A DNA stretch of 37,436 nt from a bacterium (GTDB lineage: Bacteria > CLD3), in NCBI GenBank assembly GCA_020850775.1, contig JADZEA010000127.1:1-37436 (forward strand), read 5' to 3'. The translations under genes were made by a program, and so were the position numbers. The notes beneath the pieces were generated by a model, which was not told where the DNA came from, ran no database searches, and saw only the letters and a program-made list of their open reading frames with translations. Positions within the stretch are counted from its first letter, which is position 1; every line of letters begins with the position of its first letter. Shown one piece after another: positions 32,562 to 36,721 of this stretch.

Positions 32562-33491
32562 TCAGTTGTTGGCAGTAACGGTGTAAAAAACGTTTGTATT
32601 GTTTGAAACTGCGTTTGTGTCAGTAAAGTTTGTTGTTGCAACTGTAGTTAGAAAAATCATTGTTGTTGGCTCGTTTGTAGATTTATAAATTTTATAGCTT
32701 GTTGCGTTTGGGATTTGTGTCCAGAAAAGCTGTGCATTGTTTCCCAAAGTTGTGATTTGCAAATCCGTAACTGGTAGCAGAACGTCGTCAAACATCGTAA
32801 TGTTTTTGTTTACAGCGTTTCCGTTTGCGATTACGATTTGAGTTGGGTTTGCAAGGGAACCAAAAAATCCGCGTGGTTCGTTTGAATCTAATTGCAGGTT
32901 AGAATTTTTATCCATAAAAGCCATTGCGTAGTAGGTTCCGTTGGCTAAGTGAACTTCGTAGTTTCCGTTGCCGTTTCCTGTGAAAGTCAGGTTAAAGGCA
33001 GACGGAGTTCCTGTAAAATTTTGATTGTTGTAAGCAAAAATCACAGTTGGTCCGGAATCAGTTCCTGAGTAAGAGATGTTTCCGGCAAAGTAGTTGGTTG
33101 GCGGGACGGCGAGAGCGATATTTTTTCCTGTTTGGTTGCTTCCGCTGACTACAATTTGAGTTGGGATTGTTCCGCCGAAGTAGCCAATTTTATCTGTAAC
33201 GTCAAAGGCAGAATTGGCGTTCACGTCCTGAAAAGCCATTACGTAGTAGCTTCCGTTAGGGACGTTTTGCAGTGAGTAGTTGTAACTTGTTGAGAAAGGG
33301 AATGGGTTAGTTTGTGAGTAAGGCAAGTTAGTCGGGTCAATCGGAGCTGTAGGGAGTTGGCTAAGAGCGGCGACGATTAGTGTTTTCAGGGCACCTGTAG
33401 TTACGTTTGTAACTGTTCCGGTGATGTTTGCGGCAAAAAGGTTTGTGCAAGCTAAAGTTGTTGCAAGCAAGGTTAGTAAAGATTTATTCAT
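32562..33491 (-). CDS. Secreted protein with two tandem repeat units and a C-terminal FN3-like domain
   Basis: ORF 309 aa; MNKSLLTLLATTLACTNLFA signal; repeats GSYYVMAFQDVNANSAFDVTDKIGYFGG and GTYYAMAFMDKNSNLQLDSNEPRGFFGS; C-terminus LQITTLGNNAQLFWTQIPNATSYKIYKSTNEP...NVFYTVTAN. Confidence 0.75.
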   Translation of the reverse strand: MNKSLLTLLATTLACTNLFAANITGTVTNVTTGALKTLIVAALSQLPTAPIDPTNLPYSQTNPFPFSTSYNYSLQNVPNGSYYVMAFQDVNANSAFDVTDKIGYFGGTIPTQIVVSGSNQTGKNIALAVPPTNYFAGNISYSGTDSGPTVIFAYNNQNFTGTPSAFNLTFTGNGNGNYEVHLANGTYYAMAFMDKNSNLQLDSNEPRGFFGSLANPTQIVIANGNAVNKNITMFDDVLLPVTDLQITTLGNNAQLFWTQIPNATSYKIYKSTNEPTTMIFLTTVATTNFTDTNAVSNNTNVFYTVTANN

Positions 33492-35158
33492 TTTTCCTCC
33501 TGTTTTTTATGAATGTTAATCATATTTACGTCATCAATGTACTGAATCAACTCTGGTTCGTCAATTGACTGGAAATTTTCTAAAGTTCTGAAAAGTACGC
33601 GGATTGCGTTTCCTATTGCGTCAAGCACTCTTTTTTCTTTTTCGTCTAACTTGTCATAAATTAGTATTTTAATTATTGTTAAATTACCACTTAAAACAGT
33701 TAAGGGGTCATTAATTTTTTTGATTTCTGCAACTAAGTAGTTGAAGACACTTTTGATTTCACTTTGGATAATTTTATCTTGTGTTTCTGAAAGAATGTCC
33801 TGAAGTTTTTTTAAATCAATGTTTTTCAAGAAATAGATTTCTTTATCGGCTTGTTCATTTTCTACTTCGTGAGAAATTTGGAGGCTTTTTATTTTTTGGT
33901 TTGTTTGTTCGATGAAAGTTTGTTCTTCCACCTCGTGAAATTTTCTGAAAAATTCCAATGCTTTTTGTGGTTTTTGGAATTTTTTATAAGTTTCAAAAAG
34001 TGAGTAGCAAACTTTTTTGATCAGTGGTTTTGATTTTATTTCCTGAGCAAGGTAAAGAGCTTCTTCTAAAAATTTAGTTGAATTATTTATGTTTTTAATT
34101 TTTGCGTAAACGTTGCCAAGGAACAAAAGAGAGTGGATTTCGCCCTTGATGTTTCCAAATTTTCTGTTGTTTTCAAGGGCGTCAGCCAAAGTTGAAATTG
34201 CTTTTTCATTTAAATCCAAGTGATTGTAAGTTTCACCAATCAGGTTTAGAGAATCGCCTTTTTTAGAATTTTTATTTTTTTGTTCAATGATTTGGAGGCT
34301 TTTCATTTGGAATTCGAGGGATTTTTGGTAAGAACCTAATTCTTTGTAAACCTCTCCAATGTTACGAAAACAAGCTTCTCTTAAATCGTCATTGTTAATT
34401 TCCACAGCAATTTCAAGGCTTTTAAAATGATAATCTGAAGCAGTTTTAAAATCTCCTAACTCACTGTAAATATTTCCGATATTATTTAAGGAATTTCCAA
34501 GACCGTAAGAATCCTGAAGTTCCTCTTTAATTTTCATACTTTCGAAATTATACTCAAGTGCTTTTTCAAAATTTCCCAAGCTTCTGTGGATGTTTCCAAT
34601 GTTGTTCAGGCTTGAGGCGATGCTTCTTTTATCGCCAAAATTTTGTTTAATTTCAATGCTTTCAAGGTAATATTTTAGCGATAAATCAAGGTCTCCAATA
34701 AAATGGTAAACAATGCCAATATTATTTAAGATGCTTGCTTTGTTTTTTTCGTCTTTAAGTTGTTTGTAAATTTCTAAACTTTTCAGATAAAATTCTAAAG
34801 CATTGTTTGAGTTTCGTAAAATTCTGTAAGCATTTCCGAGATTGTTGTAAACAGAGGCTTCACCTTGTTTTTCTTTTGTTTGGATAAAAATTTTTAAGGC
34901 TTTTTCCAAGTTTTCAAAGGCTTCATCGAAGTTTGAAAGAACAATGTTGCAAGCTCCAAGGTTCCGTAAACTGTAACCTAAACCTTTTGTGTAGGAAATT
35001 TTTTCAGAAAATTCTTTAGCTTGTTTGCTTAGTTCAATGGCAAAAAGGGAATTATTATTTCTAATTTCCCAGGCAAAATCATTAAAAATATCAATTTTGT
35101 CTTTGATATCGTCAGTTGATTGCAGCTCAAGCTCAAAATCTTTAAAATTATTTGCCAT
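33488..35158 (-). CDS. Tetratricopeptide repeat protein with C-terminal degenerate DHp (HisKA-like) region lacking the phospho-acceptor His
   Basis: ORF 556 aa; many A-YNNIGNxYxxLGDF...ALEY units; coiled-coil ISHEVENEQADKEIYFLKNIDLKKLQDILSETQDKIIQSE; C-terminus EIKKINDPLTVLSGNLTIIKILIYDKLDEKEKRVLDAIGNAIRVLFRTLENFQSIDEPELIQYIDDVNMINI. Confidence 0.85.
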   Translation of the reverse strand: MANNFKDFELELQSTDDIKDKIDIFNDFAWEIRNNNSLFAIELSKQAKEFSEKISYTKGLGYSLRNLGACNIVLSNFDEAFENLEKALKIFIQTKEKQGEASVYNNLGNAYRILRNSNNALEFYLKSLEIYKQLKDEKNKASILNNIGIVYHFIGDLDLSLKYYLESIEIKQNFGDKRSIASSLNNIGNIHRSLGNFEKALEYNFESMKIKEELQDSYGLGNSLNNIGNIYSELGDFKTASDYHFKSLEIAVEINNDDLREACFRNIGEVYKELGSYQKSLEFQMKSLQIIEQKNKNSKKGDSLNLIGETYNHLDLNEKAISTLADALENNRKFGNIKGEIHSLLFLGNVYAKIKNINNSTKFLEEALYLAQEIKSKPLIKKVCYSLFETYKKFQKPQKALEFFRKFHEVEEQTFIEQTNQKIKSLQISHEVENEQADKEIYFLKNIDLKKLQDILSETQDKIIQSEIKSVFNYLVAEIKKINDPLTVLSGNLTIIKILIYDKLDEKEKRVLDAIGNAIRVLFRTLENFQSIDEPELIQYIDDVNMINIHKKQEEK

Positions 35159-35179
35159 TATTTTAAGTCTCTCAATCCA

Positions 35180-36721
35180 CTACTTTTTTTTACTAATGTT
35201 AATAATATTTATGTCATCAATAGTTTTTAGTAAAGTTGGTTCTTCAATTGAGCGTAATTTATTTAAAATATTAGAAATACTGTCAATAGATTTTTCCATA
35301 TTTTGCAAAATACGTATCTCTTTTTCGTTCAATTTTCCTTCTGAAAACATTTTTAGAATTGCCAAATTTCCTTTTAAAACTGTCAATGGTTGATTAAACT
35401 CGTGATTTGTCGTAACAACAGTTGCAACAAACATTGATTTTTTTTCGCTTTCAATGAGTTTATTTTGTGCCTCAATGAGTTTTTGGTTTAAATCAACTAA
35501 CTCTATATTTTTCAACCTGTAGATTTCTTTTTCTTTTTCTGCTTTTTCTACTTCAAAACTTATCTGTAATTTTTTTAGTTTGCTGTCGGATTCTTCGTTA
35601 AAAACTTCTTTTTCCAAACTATGAAATTTTTCGTAGTGTTCAAGTGCTTTGTCAAAATTCTCAATTGCTTCGTAAGTTTTTGAAAATGCTTCGTGAGTTT
35701 TATAAATTAAAGACTTTGCTCCGATACTTTCGGCAATCACAAGGGCATTTTGCAGGTTTTCCAAACTTTGATTGTAATCCTTTAAGTCAAAATAAATCTG
35801 ACCGTAAAACAAATGGCAGTTAGCTTCCTGAAGTTTGTAATTAATTTTCTTGCTAATTTCAAAACTTTTTGTGTTGTACTCTAATGCTTTGTCTGTTTCA
35901 CCAAGCTTTTGGTAAACAACTCCAAGCAAACCCAAATTTATACTGAAATTCTGTTTGTTACCAATTTGCGATGAAATTTCAAGACTTTGCTCTAAGTATT
36001 CAATGGCTTTTACGGGTTCATTCAACTTGAGAAAAATTTCTCCAATGCCTGTTAAAGCAGTTATTTTACTTTTTACCCCTTTTGTTTTTTCCGCAAGTTC
36101 TAACCCTTTTTCGTAATAATCCAATGCTTTTTGGTGTTCTTCCAAGTCAGAATAAACATTCCCAATATTATTGAATGAAGCACACAAGTCTTTTAAATCT
36201 TCTATTTTTTCACGGATTTTCATACTGCTTAAATGATAATCCAAAGCCTTTGGGTAATCACCTAAGTTTCGGTAAAGATTCCCAATATTGTTGTAAACAA
36301 CTGCCTCAAAGTTTTTATCTTTTTCCTTTTTTGCAATTACCAAACTCAAAAAATAACTTTCAAGTGCATTCTTAGAATCACCAATGTTTTTGTAAGCTAT
36401 TCCAATTTTATTTAAAGCAAGTGCTTCTATTTTTTTATTGTTACTTTTTCTTGACAATTCAAGCGTCTCGTTTAGAGTTATCAAAGCATCTTTGTAGTCA
36501 GACAAGTGATTTTGCAGGCTGCCAAGATTGTCTAAAGCCGTCAAAAGACCTTGTTCATAATTTATTTTTCTTGCAATTTCAATAGTTTTTTTAGCTATTT
36601 CATGGGCAAAAGTGTAATCAGAAGATTTTGTTAGTGAATACATCTGATTTAAAATATCAACCTTTTTAAACAGGTCTTTAGTAGATTTTAATTTTTCTTC
36701 AAGCTCAATAATTTTATTCAT
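35180..36721 (-). CDS. Tetratricopeptide repeat protein with C-terminal DHp (HisKA-like) region containing an H-box, no HATPase domain
   Basis: ORF 513 aa; TPR units; ISFEVEKAEKEKEIYRLKNIELVDLNQKLIEAQNKLIESEKKSMFVATVVTTNHEFNQPLTVLKGNLAILKMFSEGKLNEKEIRILQNMEKSIDSISNILNKLRSIEEPTLLKTIDDINIINISKKK. Confidence 0.87.
   Translation of the reverse strand: MNKIIELEEKLKSTKDLFKKVDILNQMYSLTKSSDYTFAHEIAKKTIEIARKINYEQGLLTALDNLGSLQNHLSDYKDALITLNETLELSRKSNNKKIEALALNKIGIAYKNIGDSKNALESYFLSLVIAKKEKDKNFEAVVYNNIGNLYRNLGDYPKALDYHLSSMKIREKIEDLKDLCASFNNIGNVYSDLEEHQKALDYYEKGLELAEKTKGVKSKITALTGIGEIFLKLNEPVKAIEYLEQSLEISSQIGNKQNFSINLGLLGVVYQKLGETDKALEYNTKSFEISKKINYKLQEANCHLFYGQIYFDLKDYNQSLENLQNALVIAESIGAKSLIYKTHEAFSKTYEAIENFDKALEHYEKFHSLEKEVFNEESDSKLKKLQISFEVEKAEKEKEIYRLKNIELVDLNQKLIEAQNKLIESEKKSMFVATVVTTNHEFNQPLTVLKGNLAILKMFSEGKLNEKEIRILQNMEKSIDSISNILNKLRSIEEPTLLKTIDDINIINISKKK

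Follow-up and report, generated by a model that had tools for sequence, protein, structure and literature searches.

What does a bacterial protein do when it carries the phospho-acceptor half of a histidine kinase and then stops? The window (the whole 37,436-nucleotide stretch of DNA analysed here) raises this question with P0001, a 513-residue TPR-coiled coil-DHp protein encoded on the minus strand at positions 35180-36721 in an open frame of 513 codons with an ATG start and a TAG stop. The N-terminal part of the protein is a TPR solenoid (residues about 17-355, 35657-36673, minus strand) that matches Pfam TPR_12 at 6.9e-49 and forms helical pairs in the full-length model, with pLDDT mostly >90. 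A long coiled coil (residues about 356-436, 35414-35656, minus strand) runs from the solenoid into a DHp two-helix domain (residues 437-490, 35252-35413, minus strand), so that the model has a single helix at 356-459 followed by the second DHp helix at 466-490. The H-box NHEFNQPL (35384-35407, minus strand) was assigned from the sequence and the family alignment columns, and a direct count places His440, the candidate phospho-acceptor, at 35402-35404 on the minus strand, exactly where the first-pass annotation had put it. The chain ends only 23 residues beyond DHp helix 2, after a C-terminal beta-hairpin PTLLKTIDDINIINI (residues 495-509, 35195-35239, minus strand; model strands 497-499 and 505-507) that lies where the CA domain would follow in a kinase.

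The identity of the helix pair was determined by sequence profiles and structure prediction. The match to Pfam HisKA (PF00512, residues 439-492) scores 32.8 bits in the whole protein and 36.1 bits in an 84-residue C-terminal fragment, both over the curated cut-off of 26.9 bits. Against a profile built from 86 relatives of other taxonomic families, the last 119 residues score 75.2 bits, while the best of 5000 shuffles reached 16.4 bits. An AlphaFold2 model of the C-terminus (mean pLDDT 94.1, alignment of 141 sequences) contains a long helix at 2-65 that comprises the coiled coil and DHp helix 1, a second helix at 72-96, and a beta-hairpin at 103-105/111-113 (model numbering), and the full-length model (mean pLDDT 87.2) reproduces these helices and the hairpin together with the TPR solenoid. 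The best PDB matches found by Foldseek are histidine kinases, mainly FixL-type chimeras but also GacS, RetS and CpxA, at probabilities of 0.94-1.00 but E-values of only 0.07-0.2, which are expected because the query is a short helical hairpin. When the family profile was compared with PDB sequences, kinases were recovered from 1.7e-15, with LvrB first. No Pfam match to HATPase_c or another CA domain was detected anywhere in P0001 at E <= 10. A HATPase domain hidden by a frameshift was also considered and was rejected because the gap to the next gene is only 21 bp (35159-35179) and the next ORF, which starts at 35158, encodes another TPR-DHp protein; the first-pass annotation, which had described a TPR protein ending in a DHp-like helix pair with an intact H-box, no kinase ATPase domain and no room for a frame-shifted one, is thus borne out on each of these points. 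Judged by its profile scores and predicted fold, the C-terminus of P0001 is a genuine HisKA/DHp domain without the kinase ATPase half, and this reading is well supported since the sequence profile, the fold model, the absence of HATPase and the conservation of the His in relatives all agree. A defence-system reading was discarded, as the PADLOC matches are to TPR repeats, except for a single weak match that also lies in the TPR region.

A profile search of 386 genomes from across the domain detected many further relatives, and profile searches gave 108 non-redundant HATPase-less DHps from 65 genomes and 50 families, a set that consists of the fetched matches reaching the profile end, with duplicates removed, and whose selection therefore favours tail-bearing members. 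The phospho-acceptor His is present in 102/108, a count to be read with the facts that the profile itself favours His and that relatives are not independent, and is followed by Asn at +3 in 96/108, by N/Q/T at the phosphatase-linked position +4 in 105/108 and by Pro at +5 in 100/108. Sixty residues beyond the His there is a Tyr in 100 of the 108 members and a Phe in three, and the tail after it reads M/I (105/108), a hydrophobic residue, Asp (85/108) and L/I (M/I-x-D-L). The ordinary kinases in the fetched loci fail to align here and have a gap at the Tyr in 91/100 and at the MxDL in 97/100, so the hairpin signature appears to be common to HATPase-less DHps and to have no counterpart in ordinary kinases. 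P0001 is itself a member of the family profile A2 and matches its positions 1-99, with the hairpin and His440 included, but it has Thr500 in place of the Tyr, which is near-invariant in the family and not strictly required for membership, and Asn508 in place of the signature Asp. A separate scan by sequence pattern covered named genomes and recovered 67 loci, whose ORFs in no case show a HATPase, in Calditrichota, Ignavibacteria (Melioribacter, Stygiobacter), Cloacimonadota, Delongbacteria, Deltaproteobacteria and Aminicenantes; its pattern contained NHE and so forced the His, and its 67/67 was left out of the conservation count.

The company kept by the domain is varied. Among 105 full-length members a receiver is found in 47, PAS in 25, GAF in 21 and TPR in 15, and the DHp module is also placed between PAS domains (L213) or between two REC domains (L211, L106). 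In two loci (L176, L195) the kinase-less DHp lies directly before an HD-GYP domain, a fusion suggesting phosphate-linked control of c-di-GMP breakdown. These placements before HD-GYP, between PAS domains and between receivers argue that the module is a self-contained domain and not a cut-off kinase. When ten members were scanned with NCBIfam, the solitary DHp was assigned to no family.

Which chemistry could such a domain perform? Work on the HisKA kinase CrdS determined that kinase activity, and not phosphatase activity, depends on the Glu at His+1, that the Asn at His+4 is needed for phosphatase but not kinase activity, and that the H371A variant retains much phosphatase activity; additionally, the isolated DHp of either EnvZ or NtrB is sufficient for phosphatase activity (PMC3510030). 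In the profile alignment, an acidic residue at His+1 is found in 87/110 solitary DHps (about 79%) and in 97/100 kinases (Fisher p 9e-5, where the 110 include two kinases and the p-value takes the sequences as independent despite their relatedness), while N/Q/T at +4 is found in 107/110 and 94/100, respectively. A relaxed +1 with a retained +4 fits the pattern of a DHp that is freed from autokinase activity yet acts on receivers, and the high conservation of the His would also fit phosphotransfer. Four relatives (L203, L205, L226 and L232) have Asp for the His and keep Thr at +4 (e.g. NDHINTPL, SDRINTPL) and are candidates for natural phosphatase-only modules.

The reading that we prefer, and to which we give an even chance, is that P0001 is a soluble sensor or adaptor in which a TPR solenoid and a coiled coil are joined to a kinase-less DHp that acts in trans on receivers by dephosphorylation or phosphate exchange. 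The TPR solenoid would be the input, probably sensing a protein or peptide partner. Two chains would form a four-helix bundle, with helix 1 as the binding surface for receiver domains, and the TPR input would control the bundle or its binding to the receiver. A bound receiver might then be dephosphorylated, with Gln444 at His+4 placing a water, or might exchange its phosphate with His440, and the net effect would be that phosphate from the conventional kinases of the cell is drained or rerouted. The hairpin, in place of the ATPase domain, probably holds the module in a non-kinase state. The receiver domains in 47 of the 105 members and the kinase-flanked Ignavibacteria loci described below also speak for this reading. 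Counted against it are T500 and N508 in P0001, the loss of the His in two other TPR-DHp proteins of the same genome (P0002 and the protein of contig C31), and the failure to find a two-component gene beside P0001 or a kinase near the TPR-DHp genes of the related genome.

A true phosphotransferase, in which His440 takes phosphate from a CA domain or a receiver and passes it to another receiver in an HPt-like relay with phosphatase action secondary, is a fairly unlikely alternative. The conservation of the His across relatives, which the first-pass annotation had singled out as a point to check and which holds, exceeds what phosphatase action alone should need, given the behaviour of CrdS H371A, and speaks for such a relay. 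So does the setting of an Ignavibacteria member, with a hybrid kinase that ends in REC on one flank and an NtrC-type regulator on the other, which is a relay layout; against a relay, the four Asp-bearing relatives that keep Thr at +4 are a better fit to a phosphatase, and P0001 has no adjoining partner gene. In that Ignavibacteria locus (Stygiobacter electus, L154), the REC-DHp gene has its start overlapped by the gene for a hybrid kinase (HAMP-HisKA-HATPase-REC) and is faced by genes for a HATPase-REC protein and the NtrC-type regulator. A kinase gene is adjacent in 37/67 loci, almost all of Ignavibacteria type, and these are not independent because the Ignavibacteria-type loci are mutually related. 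The arrangement of a hybrid kinase gene overlapping the REC-DHp gene and facing a HATPase-REC gene recurs in L154 (1190-7653) and other Ignavibacteria loci (L113-L162), with the NtrC-type regulator checked in L154, and is apparently an unstudied multi-component system.

The neighbourhood of P0001 is of another kind. No two-component gene was found beside P0001 in the window, where the neighbours of the pair formed with the next gene are moaC, a DUF2141-like gene and a TMEM260-like gene, and a HATPase match at the left end of the window is Hsp90. The next gene encodes P0002 (33488-35158, minus strand; 556 residues), a tandem TPR-DHp paralogue that is 36% identical to P0001 by BLASTP and has lost the phospho-acceptor; the first-pass annotation had noticed neither this paralogy nor the existence of a large family. 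Its H-box reads AEIKKINDPL, with Lys480 (33719-33721, minus strand) at the position of His440 in the BLASTP alignment and Asp at +4; the C-terminal Tyr is kept, and the C-terminal fragment matches Pfam HisKA at E 0.042, under the cut-off. Identity between P0001 and P0002 (36-38%) is similar to their identity to the best homologue in G001, the only same-family genome (40%), so the duplication is old. The start of the DUF2141-like gene (32562-33491, minus strand) overlaps the stop of P0002 by 4 bp, and this gene is probably in one operon with P0001 and P0002. As a suggestion only, P0001 and P0002 could possibly make good each other's missing residues in a heterodimer. Any activity of P0001 should be regarded as putative, given T500 in place of the signature Tyr and the loss of the His in P0002.

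Seven HATPase-less proteins with this DHp are encoded in the genome that contains P0001, namely four TPR proteins (P0001, P0002 and one each on contigs C103 and C31), two REC-DHp proteins (C34, C42) and one PAS-DHp protein (C117). The TPR-DHp protein of contig C31 (3835-4074; L006 1498-3027, minus strand) has Tyr for the His and Phe at +4 (INYELEFPL), and retains its C-terminal Tyr together with most of the tail signature. G001 belongs to Calditrichota, and the window probably does too. G001 has 12 matches, mostly TPR-DHp proteins, and its closest homologues, like P0002, keep the hairpin Tyr; no kinase was detected near its TPR-DHp genes within the fetched 5 kb. The same TPR chassis carries other ends in G001, as read from the sequence: a full kinase in L265 (1261-3186, plus strand) and a LuxR-type HTH in L268 (1492-3021, plus strand). 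The ends found on the shared TPR input module are apparently interchangeable outputs. A dedicated stand-alone CA partner was sought among the short HATPase ORFs of the P0001 genome, and the search for orphan HATPase_c proteins proposed in the first-pass annotation yielded no clear candidate because the five strong ones are of the RsbW type (HATPase_c_2).

The two genomes also bear on the possibility that the DHp is a scaffold that only pairs subunits, or that hetero-dimerises with the His-less P0002 or with a full kinase, its own chemistry being irrelevant. We consider this unlikely. P0002 and the C31 protein retain domain-level similarity without the His, and the siblings in G001 that put a full kinase or a DNA-binding end on the shared chassis would be at home in such a scheme, but the strong conservation of the His and the +4 residue over 50 families is difficult to reconcile with a domain whose chemistry does not matter. 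That the C-terminus is what is left of a TPR histidine kinase, now decaying and functionless, is improbable: the family Tyr and Asp are lost in P0001, the His is lost in its tandem copy and the related genome does contain complete TPR kinases, but the frame is open with an intact H-box, the C-terminus is 58% identical to that of a homologue in another genus and reaches the 75-bit profile score, and the HATPase-less state is common to the whole family and is therefore old and maintained.

Beyond the dephosphorylation or phosphate exchange preferred for P0001 itself, the family may represent a distinct bacteria-wide module, a DHp closed by a Tyr/MxDL hairpin and plugged into TPR, REC, PAS, GAF and HD-GYP proteins as a dedicated phosphatase or phosphotransfer unit on receivers, outside the annotation families searched; we hold this wider proposal tentatively, at slightly short of even chances. 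HisKA proteins without an ATPase domain frequently carry a kinase annotation or are set aside as incomplete. If the proposal is true, kinase-less DHp modules form a common layer within two-component networks and serve there to drain or relay phosphate.

Several known systems can be compared with P0001. Spo0B of Bacillus and ChpT of Caulobacter are dimeric DHp four-helix bundles that pass phosphate without being kinases, and P0001 may be likened to them by analogy. Spo0B keeps a CA-like domain after the DHp. ChpT does as well (PMC3433190), whereas P0001 ends in a short hairpin. The Spo0B-like role raised in the first-pass annotation stands only as this analogy, since P0001 has no match to the Spo0B or ChpT Pfam models or to HPt (PF01627) at E <= 10 and no second, CA-like C-terminal domain in the model. 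TPR histidine kinases such as FimS of Porphyromonas and L265 of G001 have a TPR input, a coiled coil and a DHp as in P0001, but both carry HATPase_c (L265 reads HELNTPIG and then an ATPase domain), and the match of FimS to P0001 lies mostly in the TPRs and scores far below the cut-off. LvrB and NmpS, in which REC is joined to a DHp and is phosphorylated by a partner kinase of the same operon, resemble the REC-DHp relatives of P0001 in layout but possess a CA domain and function as kinases (PMC5863495, PMC11841059). The 'split kinase' Hik36-Hik43 (PMC7656254) was set aside as a parallel, as the split is of the CheA type and not HisKA. Searches of the open-access literature yielded no publication that treats the bacterial family or its hairpin, which is not proof of absence. 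The closest description is that of the archaeal 'HisKA, no HATPase' HK-like proteins, listed as 'possible incomplete histidine kinase' in P2CS and found primarily in Archaeoglobi and Methanomicrobia with PAS, GAF or REC inputs (PMC5847659). Compared by description, the account of the class available to us mentions no TPR fusion, Tyr/MxDL hairpin or kinase-flanked locus (PMC5847659). In that account the class combines sensor domains with a C-terminal HisKA that has a conserved His and no HATPase, some members having REC, and its authors suggested, without experiments, a phosphatase or phosphotransfer activity (PMC5847659). P0001, with an N-terminal input domain, a C-terminal HisKA with its His and no HATPase, falls within the same definition.
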